Origin: Candidatus Roizmanbacteria bacterium RIFCSPLOWO2_01_FULL_35_13 | GTDB taxonomy: Bacteria > Patescibacteriota > Microgenomatia > UBA1406 > GWC2-37-13 | NCBI GenBank assembly: GCA_001789635.1 | Contig: MGAF01000006.1 | Coordinates: forward strand, 1 to 43,925 | Length of the DNA stretch: 43,925 nucleotides | Direction of reading: 5' to 3' | Part shown: positions 3,900-41,896 of the stretch, one piece after another | Position numbering within the stretch: position 1 is the stretch's first letter | Layout of the letters: every line of letters starts with the position of its first letter | Program-made: the position numbers and the translations under genes | Notes under the pieces: model-generated | The model's database searches: none | Seen by the model: the letters and a program-made list of their open reading frames with translations, nothing else | What the model was told of the DNA's origin: nothing

Positions 3900-3918
3900 C
3901 TTTAAAAAGTTGATATAT

Positions 3919-4008
3919 GATGCCAATCTACTAATATATGCTAATGTTGCGAATAATTAATTCAAACTATATTAGCGGCATTTGCATTCATAAGCGGATT
4001 AGCATCAT
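3919..4008. repeat. nonamer word-repeat palindrome, 3' side of GxxExxY gene 1
   Basis: Words such as GATGCCAAT, ATGCTAAT and TTGCGAAT run left to right, then the same words reversed (ATTAGCGGC, ATTTGCATTC, ATTAGCATC) lead into the stop region of the gene at 4005-4412. The two runs are mutually inverted and could form a long imperfect hairpin. Confidence 0.7.
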
Positions 4009-4412
4009 ATTTTTTCCTTAAATTCAGAATTTAGAACCCTTTTTGGACGAAGATATCTGTCTCTAAAATTTACCAGAATTCCAAGTTTCATATTCAAAGC
4101 CTTTAAATATCTTCTGACTTGATAGTAATCTTCCTTAGTAATAATTGTTTTAGCTTTAACCTCAAGAATTATTTTGTCCTCGACAATAAAATCAATTTTG
4201 TTTCTATGAGTTTTTTCTCCATCAAATGATATATCTAAGAACTTCTCTCTTTCATAGCGTATTTGGTTCTTTTTTAAATAAAATTCAATCTTGTCAGCAC
4301 ATTGTAGTTCACTGCAATATTTTCCCAGCTCATTATGAACAGCAAACAAAACTCCTGTAATTTTATATGAAAGCTCTGGATATATGAGTATATTAGCAGC
4401 ATTTGCGTTCAT
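4005..4412 (-). CDS. GxxExxY (PDDEXK_3) protein, copy 1
   Basis: A member of the GxxExxY family (Pfam PDDEXK_3), predicted to share the PD-(D/E)xK nuclease fold; its cellular role is unknown. The 135-aa protein keeps Glu36 in the naming stretch and the candidate nuclease core Asp74 in KIDFIVEDK and ExK at 84-86 in IILEVKAK. The gene sits inside arrays of about 9-bp words, and the first codons (MNANAAN) are read from those words. The true start could therefore lie elsewhere, although no other ATG or GTG precedes the conserved YPELSYKITG. A paralogue in the same setting lies at 12601-12987. An enzymatic role as nuclease is inference. Confidence 0.85.
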   Translation of the reverse strand: MNANAANILIYPELSYKITGVLFAVHNELGKYCSELQCADKIEFYLKKNQIRYEREKFLDISFDGEKTHRNKIDFIVEDKIILEVKAKTIITKEDYYQVRRYLKALNMKLGILVNFRDRYLRPKRVLNSEFKEKI

Positions 4413-4539
4413 TTGTTGATTGGCATCATATTTCTAAATTGGCATCATTTCTCTATATTAGCAGCATTAGTTTTCATTCGCATATTAGCATCTTTACTTT
4501 ATATTAGCAGCATTTGCATCAATTCGCAGATTAGCATCA
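4391..4539. repeat. nonamer word-repeat array, 5' side of GxxExxY gene 1
   Basis: About 150 bp of reversed words (ATTAGCAGC, ATTTGCGTTC, TTGGCATCAT, ATTCGCAT, ATTAGCATC). Read in the gene's direction they are TGCTAAT, GCAAAT, GCGAAT and GCCAAT at a spacing close to 9 nt. The array overlaps the gene's first 22 bases. Because 9 is a multiple of three, the words can stay open in one frame. Confidence 0.75.
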
Positions 4540-4547
4540 GATCGTAA

Positions 4548-6273: not shown

Positions 6274-7017
6274 TTATTTAGAAGAAAGAAATGGGATTTT
6301 TAATATGTCAACCCCAATAACTCTAAGGATAAAGACGGAAAAGATTATCAACATCAAACCCATCACACATGAAGTAAGCAGCTCCTGGGCTTTTTTAATC
6401 CGCTCTGGATTGCCACTGGAGGATTGGATCATAAAAGCTGCATAGATAATGCAAAGCATGGCCACAATTCCACCAAGTCCTATCCCAAAAGTGAAAATAT
6501 AGTTAATAAATCCTTCCAACGAAAGTGGAATACAACCGATGCCTGTCCAAAAACCGGACACAGCACATCTGTCACAAGCCTCAAACTCTTTAGGATTTGA
6601 CGTACCAAGATATCTCTTGCACAATTCTCTAATTTCTGGAATAGGACTAACAGAAGCATTTTTTAAAGTACAACTACAATTGCCAGACCTGTCATGTATT
6701 TCTTCACCATACATACATTTTATTCCGGGATATTTAATTTGAAAATCCGCAATACTATGACATCTGTCTTTTGCATTACTAATCCAATCACCAATTCCAG
6801 GCACTTTCTCTATGTAATCTAACAAACCGAATGAACAATTTAAAGATATGGGAGTACAGCAGAGATTAGCTCCCTTTGTGTCATCCGGCACACCACAGCC
6901 AATACCTGGTACTTGATCTACCAATCCCAAAGGGTTTAAAGCATACGCCGGACGATTAATATTAATTAAAAGAATTAAGAAGACAAGTCCGATTAAGATC
7001 AAAAAATTCTTCATCAT
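6274..7017 (-). CDS. VirB2-pilin-like protein with Cys-rich extracellular domain
   Basis: Residues 1-27 are a signal peptide (hydrophobic core ending PAYA-L). A region of about 145 residues follows with many cysteines (CCTP, CSC, CDRCAVSG, GIGC), probably disulfide-bonded outside. The last 80 residues hold two TM helices separated by SSGNPERIKKAQELL, the loop pattern of VirB2/TrbC-like small membrane proteins; the same pattern occurs in the two proteins at 28338-28978. The start is 18 nt after the stop of the 1245-aa gene, so they form one unit. A second in-frame ATG lies at 7014. A pilus-subunit or channel role is inference; the Cys-rich extension is unusual for VirB2. Confidence 0.65.
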   Translation of the reverse strand: MMKNFLILIGLVFLILLININRPAYALNPLGLVDQVPGIGCGVPDDTKGANLCCTPISLNCSFGLLDYIEKVPGIGDWISNAKDRCHSIADFQIKYPGIKCMYGEEIHDRSGNCSCTLKNASVSPIPEIRELCKRYLGTSNPKEFEACDRCAVSGFWTGIGCIPLSLEGFINYIFTFGIGLGGIVAMLCIIYAAFMIQSSSGNPERIKKAQELLTSCVMGLMLIIFSVFILRVIGVDILKIPFLSSK

Positions 7018-10813: not shown

Positions 10814-10889
10814 ATAGTTAAATGGTTACATGGTTGAATGGTTAAAAAAATCATAACCATCTTGCTATTTAGCCATTTGACTATCTAGT
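10814..10889. repeat. octamer word-repeat palindrome, 3' side of the S23 gene
   Basis: Four forward octamers (ATAGTTAA, ATGGTTAC, ATGGTTGA, ATGGTTAA) are followed after a short A-rich turn by reversed octamers (TAACCATC, TTGCTATT, TAGCCATT, TGACTATC). The halves are inverted copies, so this is an empty forward/reverse word element beside the gene. Confidence 0.8.
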
Positions 10890-10898
10890 ATTATGTCT

Positions 10899-11273
10899 CT
10901 ATATTTCTAATTTTTCTTCTGTAATTTTTATTAAATAATTAATTTCTCTTGGCAACTCAATTAACTTCTGTAAAATATAATTTCTTTCTACAGGATTGAT
11001 TAATTTTCTAGCAAAGGCCTTTTTCGTCCAATGTTCGGATTCGAATGCCGATCCTCTTGCATTGTAATAAAATTTTTCTTTATCTTTCTTATGATATCTC
11101 CCGAATCCCTCCGCAATATTGGCCGCTATTGAATCGGTTGCATTTACCCACTGACTTCCTAATGTTCTTTTACTAAACCAATCCCACTTAGAAACAATAT
11201 TCCAAACGTTATCTGATAATTCTGATGCTATCGTATATGCTCTAATGTCCTCTAATTTTAACCATTTAACCAT
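10899..11273 (-). CDS. four-helix-bundle (S23 / 23S intervening-sequence) protein
   Basis: A member of the four-helix-bundle family first described from intervening sequences in 23S rRNA genes; members have no established activity. The 124-aa length and the landmarks LEDIRAY, SLGSQWVNATDSIAANIAEGFGRYHKKDK and the SAFESEHWTKKAFARKL helix match the family. Here it is not in an rRNA gene but inside an array of 8-bp words. Its first two words, ATGGTTAA ATGGTTAA, are the codons for Met-Val-Lys-Trp-Leu, so the repeat provides the start of the protein. A TAAATA 5 nt upstream of the ATG, itself built from the words, could be its -10 box. Confidence 0.88.
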   Translation of the reverse strand: MVKWLKLEDIRAYTIASELSDNVWNIVSKWDWFSKRTLGSQWVNATDSIAANIAEGFGRYHKKDKEKFYYNARGSAFESEHWTKKAFARKLINPVERNYILQKLIELPREINYLIKITEEKLEI

Positions 11274-11329
11274 ATGATTATTTAGCTTTTCAACTATCTA
11301 ACCATATAGCTATTTAACCATTTAACCAT
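11258..11329. repeat. perfect-phase octamer array over the S23 gene start
   Basis: Nine consecutive 8-bp units with no phase slip. In the gene's direction: ATGGTTAA twice, ATAGCTAT, ATGGTTAG, ATAGTTGA, AAAGCTAA, ATAATCAT, then ATGGTTAA twice. The last two units are coding (11258-11273). Confidence 0.85.
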
Positions 11330-11353
11330 ATTTATCTTTGTAACTATTCACAG

Positions 11354-11486
11354 TTCTTGACAAAGATTATAATCAATTGTCATTGCGAGCGGTGAGTTTT
11401 GGAGCGAAACAATCTCATTAATGGGATTGCTTCGTCGTCGTTCCTCCTCCTCGCAATGACATAGTCTGGTATAGTTTTGTCAAGAA
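11354..11486. repeat. large REP-like palindrome with TTCTTGACAAA outer arms
   Basis: Inner arms TGTCATTGCGAG (11379-11390) and CTCGCAATGACA (11450-11461) are enclosed by outer arms TTCTTGACAAA (11354-11364) and TTTGTCAAGAA (11476-11486). The inner part is the widespread GTCATTGCGAG-type repeat. The gene-free interval 11274-11580 consists of the octamer array, this palindrome and the promoter-hairpin unit that follows; I see no gene in it. Confidence 0.7.
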
Positions 11487-11515
11487 GCGTGAACTCTTAC
11501 TTATCTTTATTCTAT

Positions 11516-12487: not shown

Positions 12488-12542
12488 CTTTTGTAGTTAT
12501 AACTCATTCTACAATAAATCTTACCTGTATACGGATATATTT

Positions 12543-12592
12543 AATACGAATACTGCAAATAAAAATGCAAATGATTCGAATTATGCTAATAT
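12543..12592. repeat. forward nonamer words, 5' side of GxxExxY gene 2
   Basis: Words ACGAAT, TGCAAAT, ATGCAAATG, TTCGAAT and TGCTAATAT run into the start of the gene at 12601. The last word, TGCTAATAT, has the form of an extended -10 box (TG-n-TAATAT) 8 nt before the ATG. Confidence 0.65.
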
Positions 12593-12600
12593 GAAAAAAT

Positions 12601-12987
12601 ATGGATAAGTTAATTTATCCAACTCTTTCCTATAACATAACAGGTATTCTCTTTAAAACTCACAACAAATTAGGTAAATATTATAGTGAAAAACAATACT
12701 GCGATCTTATAGAAAAATATTTAATAGAACAAAAGATTACTTATATCCGCGAACAGGTATTACCACCGATCTTCGAAGGAGAAAAACCTGGAAGAAATAA
12801 AGCAGATTACATAGTAGAAAATAAAATTATTTTAGAAGTAAAGTCAAAGAAAATTATTACTAAAGACGACTACTATCAAATTAAAAAGTACTTAACAGTT
12901 ATGCATTTAAAATTAGGAATTTTAGTTAATTTTAGATCAGCATACTTACACCCTAAGCGTATTTTAAATTCATCAGTTAAGGAGTAA
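12601..12987 (+). CDS. GxxExxY (PDDEXK_3) protein, copy 2
   Basis: A 128-aa paralogue of the protein at 4005-4412, sharing long blocks such as KIILEVK(S/A)K, KLGILVNFR and the LSYxITG start. Candidate nuclease residues: Glu30, Asp69 (KADYIVENK) and Glu79-x-Lys81. Here the N-terminal Asn/Ala tail is absent and the ATG gives MDKLIYPTLSYNITG, which supports the conserved core beginning there in both copies. Forward words lie upstream and reversed words downstream, the same polarity relative to the gene as in copy 1. Biochemical role unknown. Confidence 0.87.
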   Translation: MDKLIYPTLSYNITGILFKTHNKLGKYYSEKQYCDLIEKYLIEQKITYIREQVLPPIFEGEKPGRNKADYIVENKIILEVKSKKIITKDDYYQIKKYLTVMHLKLGILVNFRSAYLHPKRILNSSVKE

Positions 12988-13035
12988 TCATTTGCATAAT
13001 TCGCGGTATTTGCATGAAGATTCGCATCATTTGTA
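12988..13035. repeat. reversed nonamer words, 3' side of GxxExxY gene 2
   Basis: ATCATTTGCAT, AATTCGC, TATTTGCATG, ATTCGCATCATTTG: the reverse of the words found before the gene. They end 6 nt before the khpB stop codon. Confidence 0.65.
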
Positions 13036-13041
13036 TTATAC

Positions 13042-13521
13042 TTATTCCTCTTTCCCAGCTTCTTCCTTCTTGTTGAGCGACACTATTAACTGCCTATCTC
13101 TACCTTCACCCACTGAGTATGAAGTCAGATCCGGATGTTTTTTAGCAATGTATTCATGGACTATTTTTCTTTCATATGAGGAAAAAGCACGGAGCGGTAC
13201 TTCGTGCTTTTCAGCCTTGACTCTTTGCGCCAATTCTTCGGCAATTCCTTCCAATCTTTCGACCTGTTTCTCTCTGTAATCATTTACATTAAGTAATAGA
13301 TCTACGGGTTCGCCGAATTTTTTATAAAGAATTACTTCCAGAATTTTCTGTACGGCTCTGATAGTTTCTCCATGTCTTCCAATTACAGTCGGAGCATCTT
13401 CTTCTGTCTTGATCACAACGTGATATACTTCTTCTTCCTCGGTTACTTCAAGCTCAAACTTACCGACCATCTTATTCAATAACTCCTCTGCCTCTGATTT
13501 AATTGTTTTTAATTTATCCAT
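13042..13521 (-). CDS. khpB: KhpB/Jag RNA-binding protein (KH-R3H)
   Basis: RNA-binding protein of the SpoIIIJ-associated (Jag/KhpB) type, known in other bacteria to act with KhpA on transcripts of cell-wall and division genes. An N-terminal Jag-like stretch (1-35) is followed by a type II KH domain with GRHG at 48-51 and an R3H domain with Arg118-x3-His122 (SYERKIVHEYI). The 159-aa length is short but complete because the long linker seen in Firmicutes is missing. It lies downstream of yidC and rpmH, the usual oriC-proximal order, separated from yidC by a word-repeat palindrome. Confidence 0.9.
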   Translation of the reverse strand: MDKLKTIKSEAEELLNKMVGKFELEVTEEEEVYHVVIKTEEDAPTVIGRHGETIRAVQKILEVILYKKFGEPVDLLLNVNDYREKQVERLEGIAEELAQRVKAEKHEVPLRAFSSYERKIVHEYIAKKHPDLTSYSVGEGRDRQLIVSLNKKEEAGKEE

Positions 13522-14839: not shown

Positions 14840-17035
14840 TTATAACCTTTCTTCTAAAATCGATTTCTTGCCCTGATTAAACACCATCCATACTGCCTCG
14901 GTTACAAAGGGCATAAATGGATGGAGCATCTTTAAATTCTCGAAGTAAACTTTTTGCAATTCTTCAAGAACTTCAATTCTACCAGCTTTTAACTCTTCTT
15001 TCAATTGCTCAATATAATAGTCGGCGAACCTATGCCAAATAAATTCATAAACCTGTCCAAACGCCTGCGAGAACTTGAATGAGTCCATTGATTTAATATA
15101 CTGCTTTTTTTCTTCCTCAAATTCTTTTTGTAATTTTTTAAGAATCCGTCCATTGGGATTTGATGTTTGTTTGGAAATTGGAAATTGGAAATTGGAAATT
15201 CGGTTCATCTCTATGAACCGTCCTATATTCCAAATCTTATTTGCAAAATTCCGCATCCCGATTATTTTTTCTTCACCCAAGTTTATTTTACCTTCGCTTG
15301 AGGTGCCGAAAAAAAGCGAAGCCCTAAAAGCATCGGCTCCGTATTTATACACTAAATCTATCGGATTAATTACATTTCCCTTACTCTTACTCATCTTTTG
15401 CCCCTTGGAATCTGTAACCATCGGCCAAAGATAGACATTTTTAAAAGGCACTTCTTTTTTTATGTATAAGGAAAACATTATCATTCTGGAAACCCACATT
15501 TCCAGAATATCCTTGGACGTTCCCATCATATCTGTAGGAAATCGCTCCTTATATTCTTTTTCTTTTAATGTAACTAACGGCCATTGGCCGGAAGAAAACC
15601 ACGTGTCAAAAGTGTCTGTTTCCCGTAAATAATTTCCTACCGGTTTTTCTTCACTGATTACAAATTTTGATTTTTTTGGTGCTGCTAACTTTTGCAGCCC
15701 CTCTTCTATTTCTTTAAGATCAAAATTTTTTAATAAATCTTTTATATATCCTGAATTGGATTTACCTGTTTTATCAAGAAATATTACAAAGATATCGGGA
15801 TTTGTTTTTACGTCGTACCAGGCCGGAATCCTGATACCCCAGGCAATCTGTCTGCTTATCGGCCAATCGTGCATTCTTTCCATCCAAAGTAGAAGTTGTT
15901 TTTTAAATTTTCCCGGATAAAATCTTATCTTATTTTTCTTTACCGCCTGAATAACCGGGGGTTTTAAAGTTTCAACTTTTATATACCAGTTAGGAATAAT
16001 CATCGGCTCCAGATCTCTCTTACAACGATAGCAAATCGCAATACTGTGTAAATAATCCCTATCTGTTTTTTCCATCAATCCTTTTTTTTCCATATCCTCC
16101 GCTACTTTTTGCCTTGCCTGTTTGACTTTTAGTCCTTCATACGGTCCTGCCAGTTTATTTAATCTGCCCCTGATATCTACCACTTGTTTTATATCCAGTC
16201 CGTGCCGCTTACCCGTTTCAAAATCATTGAAATCATGAGCCGGAGTTATTTTTACCACTCCGGTTCCGAATTTTGGATCGACCGTCTCGTCCGCTATCAC
16301 TTTTATTTTAAATTTTCCCAACAATCCCTCCGCCTCAACCATTTTCCCTACCCATTTTTTATATCTTTTGTCTTTTGGGTTTACAGCCAACGCAGTATCC
16401 CCGAATTTAGTCTCAGGCCTTACGGTAGCCAAAACAAACGGACCATACTTCATATAATATAAGGGATCTATCCTCTCAACATGTTCTATTTCCAACTCAG
16501 CCAGTGAAGTACCGCAATAAGTACAATAATTAACAAGATAATCATCCCTATAGATCAACCCTTCTTTTTGCATCATCTCAAATGTTTTAAAAACCCTTTT
16601 TAAAACATGTTTATCCAGGGTAAAAATACTTCTTTTCCAATCGGCTAAAAAACCTAACTTCTTAAATTGTTGGTAAATCAAGCCGGAATTATCCTGAACG
16701 AATTTATAGACGTTGTCATAAAAAGTCTGCCTGTCGAAGTCCATCCGGGATTTGTCCTGTTTGGCCAGATGTTTTTCATAGACAAACTGCGTTTCGAATC
16801 CTGCATGGTCCGTTCCCGGAATCCAGAGCGAAGCAAAACCCAATAATCTTTTATAACGAATTAAGACATCGTCGACACTATACATTCCATGACCGGCATG
16901 AAGGGACGCATTAGCATTCGGCGGGGGCATCAAAATTGTATAAGGTTTTCCTTTTTCAGACCTGTTCAATTTTTCTTTTTCCCAAAAACGGTAAATGTTT
17001 TCTTCGGCTTGAGAAGGAATAAATTTTTTATCCAT
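14840..17035 (-). CDS. valS: valyl-tRNA synthetase
   Basis: Charges tRNA-Val with valine. The class I signatures are present: HAGH at 46-49 after PPPNANASL, and KMSKS at 547-551 within GQKMSKSKGNVI. The editing (CP1) domain lies between (about 190-330), with TVRPET and GTGVVKITPAHDFND motifs, and the WFSSGQWP stretch of the synthetic site is intact. At 731 aa it is shorter than the usual ~880-950 because it stops soon after the anticodon-binding domain and has no C-terminal coiled coil, as in many reduced genomes. Residues about 613-622 (ISNFQFPIS) are encoded by a heptamer tandem repeat at the junction to the anticodon-binding domain. A TATAAT in the adjacent inverted-repeat element could drive it. 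Confidence 0.95.
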   Translation of the reverse strand: MDKKFIPSQAEENIYRFWEKEKLNRSEKGKPYTILMPPPNANASLHAGHGMYSVDDVLIRYKRLLGFASLWIPGTDHAGFETQFVYEKHLAKQDKSRMDFDRQTFYDNVYKFVQDNSGLIYQQFKKLGFLADWKRSIFTLDKHVLKRVFKTFEMMQKEGLIYRDDYLVNYCTYCGTSLAELEIEHVERIDPLYYMKYGPFVLATVRPETKFGDTALAVNPKDKRYKKWVGKMVEAEGLLGKFKIKVIADETVDPKFGTGVVKITPAHDFNDFETGKRHGLDIKQVVDIRGRLNKLAGPYEGLKVKQARQKVAEDMEKKGLMEKTDRDYLHSIAICYRCKRDLEPMIIPNWYIKVETLKPPVIQAVKKNKIRFYPGKFKKQLLLWMERMHDWPISRQIAWGIRIPAWYDVKTNPDIFVIFLDKTGKSNSGYIKDLLKNFDLKEIEEGLQKLAAPKKSKFVISEEKPVGNYLRETDTFDTWFSSGQWPLVTLKEKEYKERFPTDMMGTSKDILEMWVSRMIMFSLYIKKEVPFKNVYLWPMVTDSKGQKMSKSKGNVINPIDLVYKYGADAFRASLFFGTSSEGKINLGEEKIIGMRNFANKIWNIGRFIEMNRISNFQFPISKQTSNPNGRILKKLQKEFEEEKKQYIKSMDSFKFSQAFGQVYEFIWHRFADYYIEQLKEELKAGRIEVLEELQKVYFENLKMLHPFMPFVTEAVWMVFNQGKKSILEERL
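15171..15198. repeat. heptamer tandem repeat inside valS
   Basis: Four exact copies of TTGGAAA in plus-strand sense, coding on the other strand for a stretch reading ISNFQFPIS. Because 7 is not a multiple of 3, three units make one 7-residue period; the reading frame is kept. Confidence 0.9.
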
Positions 17036-41776: not shown

Positions 41777-41896
41777 GCCCTGGCTACGACCTACTTTCCC
41801 TCCCGCCGAAGCGGGTAGTATCATCGGCGCTGACTCGTTTCACTTCCTTGTTCGGGATGGGAAAGGGTGGTACCGAGTCGCTCCAGTAACCAGAGC
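41777..41896 (-). rRNA. rrf: 5S ribosomal RNA
   Basis: On the minus strand 120 nt with terminal helix GCTCTGGTTAC / GTAGCCAGGGC (11 pairs including wobble), the loop core CCATCCCGAACAAGGAAGTG and the AGTAGGTCGTAGCCAGGG 3' side typical of 5S rRNA. No 23S gene precedes it: the upstream neighbour is the membrane-anchored protein at 41937-42569. The 3' end is followed by eight T residues in the minus sense, a possible terminator tract. Confidence 0.95.

Follow-up and report, generated by a model that had tools for sequence, protein, structure and literature searches.

Small S23 and GxxExxY genes framed by inverted word arrays look like cargo of an undescribed, once-mobile kind of element

The closest described systems are the intervening sequences (IVSs) of 23S rRNA genes in Coxiella and Leptospira, which, like the elements considered here, carry an S23 open reading frame inside inverted, stem-forming ends, have been termed selfish elements and show a sporadic distribution (PMC4990558, PMC11270868). 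The S23-encoding IVS of Coxiella is processed by RNase III (PMC4990558). A related fold is found in Avd, an accessory protein that is essential to retrohoming in diversity-generating retroelements (PMC10053308). A further likeness is to intergenic direct arrays of 7-bp words, often located just 5' of a start codon, which include TAACTGA of Beggiatoaceae (PMC4679880), GGGAATC of Xanthomonas and Nostoc (PMC4692102) and the cyanobacterial STRR. S23 genes have also been reported in cas loci as possibly associated genes (PMC3936711, PMC10910872).

The window, which is the whole stretch of 43,925 nucleotides analysed here from a Candidatus Roizmanbacteria genome, encodes an S23 protein whose gene is enclosed by arrays of an octamer word. 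The element consists of the following features:

10899-11273, minus strand: gene of an S23 / four-helix-bundle protein, 124 aa (PF05635, TIGR02436, model pLDDT 95)
11258-11329, minus strand: upstream arm of nine octamers, all in phase and reading forward relative to the gene (sequence, word scan, 8-bp autocorrelation, TRF)
10853-10884, minus strand: downstream block 1, four forward octamers (word scan, repeat search)
10814-10845, minus strand: downstream block 2, four reversed octamers (inverted repeats, RNA folds with z -3.9 and -5.1)

Read in gene orientation from 11329 to 11258, the upstream arm is a contiguous run of ATGGTTAA ATGGTTAA ATAGCTAT ATGGTTAG ATAGTTGA AAAGCTAA ATAATCAT ATGGTTAA ATGGTTAA with the consensus ATGGTTAA, and thus bears out the nine in-phase octamers that the original prediction had placed over the start of the gene. 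The prediction also had the array encode the N-terminus Met-Val-Lys-Trp-Leu, which it does (ATG GTT AAA TGG TTA), but by the last two, gene-proximal octamers and not by the first two. On the 3' side of the stop codon the predicted succession of four forward and four reversed octamers was recovered by the word scan: block 1 (10884-10853) reads ATAGTCAA ATGGCTAA ATAGCAAG ATGGTTAT and is separated by a short T-rich spacer from the reversed block 2 (10845-10814), which reads TTAACCAT TCAACCAT GTAACCAT TTAACTAT. Block 2 is able to form a local hairpin with block 1 and also to pair end to end with the upstream arm. The RNA fold of the element has the arms paired end to end with the open reading frame in the loop (z -3.9), and the 3' block alone folds as a hairpin (z -5.1) whose T run lies in the loop; in an intrinsic terminator the T run follows a GC-rich stem.

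No other stretch of the 44 kb has an 8-bp periodicity as strong as that of the two arms, which score 43 and 39 matches of 64 against a window mean of 18.0 (sd 3.9). When 288 small genes from 423 kb of the same genome were treated as pseudo-elements, the left/right inverted score of the S23 element (25) ranked third, and the S23 gene was the only one of them in which both flanks are strongly periodic. The element does not lie inside any rRNA gene; the only rRNA in the window is a 5S rRNA (41778-41894), and the neighbours of S23 are protein genes. Between the arms of this and the other units in the window stands the S23 (or GxxExxY) gene alone, with no transposase.

Another palindromic repeat (11378-11461, TGTCATTGCGAG ... 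CTCGCAATGACA) adjoins the S23 element and sits within an inverted pair (11340-11364 / 11476-11500). The stretch at 6274-7017 weakly matches a family of pilin-like conjugal transfer proteins (Mbov_0395) and adjoins a gene of 1245 aa near the S23 element for which only distant relatives are found nearby; the S23 element borders a variable, possibly transfer-related region. The window also encodes a valine--tRNA ligase of 731 aa (14840-17035), which matches model positions 2-692 of 860 and is missing the usual C-terminal part.

The window S23 protein matches PF05635 (E 3e-21, 76 bits, curated cut-off 33.8) and TIGR02436 (four helix bundle; E 2e-21, 76.2 bits, cut-off 24). Its predicted structure (pLDDT 95.2) matches 2gsc, 2rld and Avd (4dwl), with a TM of 0.82-0.94 to 2gsc, and shares its fold with Avd (4dwl, 8ub7; TM 0.7-0.8) at a sequence identity of 7-10%. 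A PDB search with the single window sequence returned no match, and the S23 profile matched 2gsc and 2rld. According to its title as cited in PMC10053308, 2gsc is made up of five four-helix bundles.

Two further genes of the window, which were absent from the original prediction, share the S23-type build and encode GxxExxY proteins:

12601-12987, plus strand: GxxExxY protein gene, PD-(D/E)XK superfamily (PF13366 E 1e-22, TIGR04256)
12535-12590, plus strand: upstream word arm of gene 12601-12987 (inverted score 24 with 12990-13045)
12990-13045, plus strand: downstream word arm of gene 12601-12987, running into the end of the KhpB-like neighbour gene
4005-4412, minus strand: GxxExxY protein gene (PF13366 E 2e-25, TIGR04256, sequence)
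4493-4542, minus strand: upstream word arm of gene 4005-4412 (inverted score 24 with 3915-3965; TRF rows 4389-4539)
3915-3965, minus strand: downstream word arm of gene 4005-4412 (inverted score)

The arms of both genes are built from the word family TGC[TGA]AAT / ATTCGCA, unlike the S23 word, and the N-terminus MNANAAN of the gene at 4005-4412 is encoded by the words. Since the same build surrounds most of the S23 genes examined across bacterial phyla and an unrelated, nuclease-like family, orphan S23 and GxxExxY genes look like genes carried by a type of once-mobile element not described before.

The genome of the window has six S23 genes, each of which is by eye set between arrays of a word of its own, 7-9 bp long, and S23 genes are present in 45 of 57 genomes of relatives with up to 13 per genome. 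Arms were scored by local alignment of the upstream 150 nt to the reverse-complemented downstream 150 nt and called at a score of at least 16. Inverted word arms are found at 93 of 157 S23 loci compared to 3-4% of permuted pairings. The 77 loci of relatives have a mean score of 18.3 (10.3 for permuted pairings, 9.6 for distant windows and 11.8 in direct orientation) and the 80 other loci, which represent some 20 phyla or classes, a mean of 18.8 (versus 9.9). The threshold is reached by 46 and 47 of these loci, respectively, and by 38 and 27 of every 1000 permuted pairings. In the other phyla, 59% of loci reach the threshold in inverted and 5% in direct orientation. Checked for missing arms and for random polarity, related S23 genes thus have arms at most loci, and these are inverted and not direct. 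About 40% of S23 loci have no arms at the threshold, and some have direct arms (L030, L259). Arms were called at none of 25 ParE control genes from the same genomes and at 4.9% of the other small genes of the window genome, where the top of the list consists largely of S23 / GxxExxY genes or genes adjoining such arms. For GxxExxY genes the proper test is the set of 29 loci from other phyla, 21 of which have inverted arms at the same threshold compared to 40 per 1000 permuted pairings; the permuted control is weak for the GxxExxY loci of relatives because these share one word family.

Word arms also occur at S23 loci of cyanobacterial and Flavobacteriia plasmids, and the one S23 locus found in viral contigs is unarmed. 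The contig scan relied on a closer subset of S23 proteins, eight distant ones having proved too divergent when aligned, and its sample is therefore biased to one S23 subgroup. On a Pseudanabaena plasmid an S23 gene between cas6 and cas4 (L259) is flanked on both sides by long direct 7-bp arrays of AAAGCTA and then AAAGCCA. A type III-B CRISPR operon on a Picosynechococcus plasmid contains an armed S23 element (L261) between cas10 and cmr3, and S23 has been reported in the same cas slot in Pleurocapsa (PMC3936711). These observations point to S23 as a passenger of cas loci, and the fact that the cas10/cmr3 copy has word arms of its own cautions against calling S23 genes in operons functional partners.

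The words differ at nearly every S23 locus. The 8-bp word of the original prediction is therefore nothing special, because both words and period vary from locus to locus. The period is 7 in most arrays and otherwise 8, 9 or 10 bp, and both arms have the same period (45 of 46 in one count and 61 of 61 measurable pairs in another). The aligned arm has a median length of 38 nt, and the downstream arm begins a median of 4 nt past the stop codon. The words have a weak core, (T/A)AG followed mostly by T or G, which exceeds column-permuted controls, and in 81 of 93 armed loci the coding strand has G-rich words upstream of the gene. S23 points in the same direction as both of its neighbours at 112 of 147 loci, where roughly 30% would be expected from background gene pairs in random orientation, and S23 may be expressed by read-through from the host operon. 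Word sequence and period are coupled to the S23 lineage. At unrelated sites, closer S23 proteins have more of their words in common (Mantel r 0.118; highest value among permutations 0.060), and the distribution of period 7 versus at least 8 on the S23 tree requires 12 changes, where 500 shuffles need at least 14 (0 of 500 as few). Shared host lineage may contribute to the coupling of both words and period to the protein.

Filled, decayed, solo and empty sites were all found at orthologous slots in relatives. The slot between a cupredoxin-like gene and copA holds full elements at L125, L126 and L143 and is empty at L127, L128, L129, L131, L133, L135 and L142; L138 is an internally deleted element that retains both arms, L134 has an arm remnant fused to copA and L136 a gene-less hairpin of other words. 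In 70 Chryseobacterium genomes the slot between moxR and a DUF58-type gene contains an armed S23 gene or recognisable pseudogene of normal length in 22 cases, and the remaining states are shortened pseudogenes, solo hairpins (e.g. L381, L390 and L392, besides those around L406-L419, which form a group with different words) or gaps of only 7-47 nt. Gene decay leaves a hairpin relic, and the arms are still recognisable over a dS of about 1.3 where the adjacent spacer is saturated. The S23 open reading frame at this slot is under purifying selection (median dN/dS 0.08), though several copies are broken. In two genomes of Bacteroidota (L174, L229) elements with unrelated words sit between sdhA and sdhB. 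At the slots compared, insertion is intergenic, past the stop codon of one gene and ahead of the next gene's start codon, and filled and empty sites are too diverged for a target-site duplication to be discerned. No empty site for the S23 locus of the window itself was found in the relatives searched, because these lack an ortholog of the 1245-aa gene beside it.

The view of the locus as an autonomous or once-mobile unit stands in so far as gene and arms act as one unit. No sign of present mobility was found: there are no near-identical S23 copies within a genome among loci from ten genomes, the best pair having about 64% nucleotide identity, and hence no recent movement is seen. With moderate confidence the locus can be described as a word-armed cassette, in which one small gene and two arrays of an element-specific word, forward before and reversed after, are gained and lost together.

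Strict word hairpins that lack a gene are present in six of six S23-bearing genomes sampled, with 1 to 15 per set of 89-423 kb; with runs of N disregarded, the five S23-free relatives have none (one arrangement in 462), all counts being taken from sampled stretches of the genomes. Apparent hairpins in two of the S23-free genomes were such runs of N, which gave the same score after shuffling. Dinucleotide shuffles yield almost no word hairpins. The hairpins share 9-mers mainly with the S23 arms of their own genome. Their density is not proportional to the number of S23 genes: one genome (G049) has 13 S23 genes and one hairpin, and the window genome has more gene-less hairpins than S23 elements. 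A reading of the solo hairpins as terminators is not favoured by their contexts, as they are not enriched between convergent genes. Gene-less hairpins in a ATGGTTAA-type word occur in the window's own genome (L012, G000:C19:23240-23311) and in another family of the class (G052, L326, near 16665).

In the cassette, the arms would be putative recognition sites for the protein that the element itself encodes. A more far-reaching reading, somewhat less likely than not, is a class of small elements widespread among bacteria in which an S23 pentamer ring or, in a second type, a GxxExxY nuclease would read its own words in inverted arms, the vocabulary would drift with the protein so that every element has its own, and decay would leave the heptamer hairpins seen across bacterial genomes. 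The likeliest mode would be an S23 ring that binds the array, on DNA or on the transcript, with one word per subunit, given the 2gsc ring of five bundles and the about five words with a (T/A)AG core per arm; this near-match of five words and a pentamer is suggestive only, because the number of words is bounded from below by a detection limit of about four. To our knowledge S23 has no catalytic site, and the past mobilising step was therefore probably supplied in trans. An alternative, which we consider unlikely but serious, is an RNA-level intervening sequence whose arms pair in the operon transcript, where RNase III would cut the stem and free the open reading frame in the loop, and the words would be stem only. 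The end-to-end fold of the window element and the co-direction with both neighbours agree with this, as does the RNase III processing known from Coxiella (PMC4990558). However, a stem alone leaves the periodic words, the (T/A)AG core and the tracking of the period along the S23 tree unexplained, and direct-repeat arms at L030 and L259 do not fit it. The coupling of words and period to the S23 lineage favours recognition by a protein over a pure stem. In 22 orthologous elements the left and right arms showed no covariation (an apparent concerted arm change in L398 is a single anecdote), which likewise speaks against a pure stem. This result also counts against the word-armed cassette, as do the lack of recent movement, the S23 loci with direct arms or none, and a hairpin density that does not follow S23 number.

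The coupling to the S23 lineage likewise weighs against arms that belong to some other mobilising system, with S23 and GxxExxY as interchangeable passengers without a role. Such an arrangement would account for the same build on two unrelated protein families and for hairpins that outlast gene loss, but it is quite improbable in view of S23 words being mostly 7-bp and GxxExxY words mostly 8-10 bp (few arrays measurable) and of the absence of hairpins from the five S23-free relatives. The latter also argues against word hairpins that pre-exist as terminators or REP-like repeats and into which S23 genes merely insert, an origin that would be in keeping with the surplus of gene-less hairpins in the window genome and with 23S rRNA IVSs, which replace hairpin loops (PMC4990558). 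Empty orthologous sites are without hairpins, several hairpins are S23 elements minus the gene (L138, L399) and solo hairpins show no preference for convergent genes, which makes this origin very unlikely. Short-period repeats readily arise in AT-rich DNA, and periodicity is likewise seen in about 4-6% of far windows; slippage and low complexity in intergenic DNA are nevertheless refuted at the level of the association by the permutation and control tests, the periods matched in both arms, the G-rich words of elements in other phyla and the near absence of hairpins from dinucleotide shuffles, and chance retains a barely perceptible probability.

In the open-access literature searched, no paper was found that connects word arrays with S23 or GxxExxY genes. 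The data join two puzzles, the orphan S23 / GxxExxY genes and the intergenic heptamer arrays, and each S23 or GxxExxY gene brings its own putative binding sites, which offers a testable entry. Like MITEs and REP/RAYT systems, the elements are small inverted-repeat units with gene-bearing and gene-less forms in one genome. Unlike these, S23 elements have no transposase, no common terminal sequence and no near-identical copies, and their words are element-specific; S23 is not a Y1 transposase, and there is no conserved REP sequence as words vary by locus. TRAP-type ring proteins are 11-mers that bind repeated (G/U)AG triplets at a spacing of 2-3 nt. They provide a mechanistic analogy only, with one AG-containing word per subunit, and differ from S23 in fold, size and spacing. 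The heptamer arrays in the published reports differ in having no associated gene, no paired inverted arm and one word per genome (PMC4679880, PMC4692102). In comparison to the 23S rRNA IVSs, elements of the window type lie between protein genes, have arms made of word arrays and commonly leave gene-less relics; if word-armed elements are taken as the frame, the rRNA IVSs would form a special case among them.
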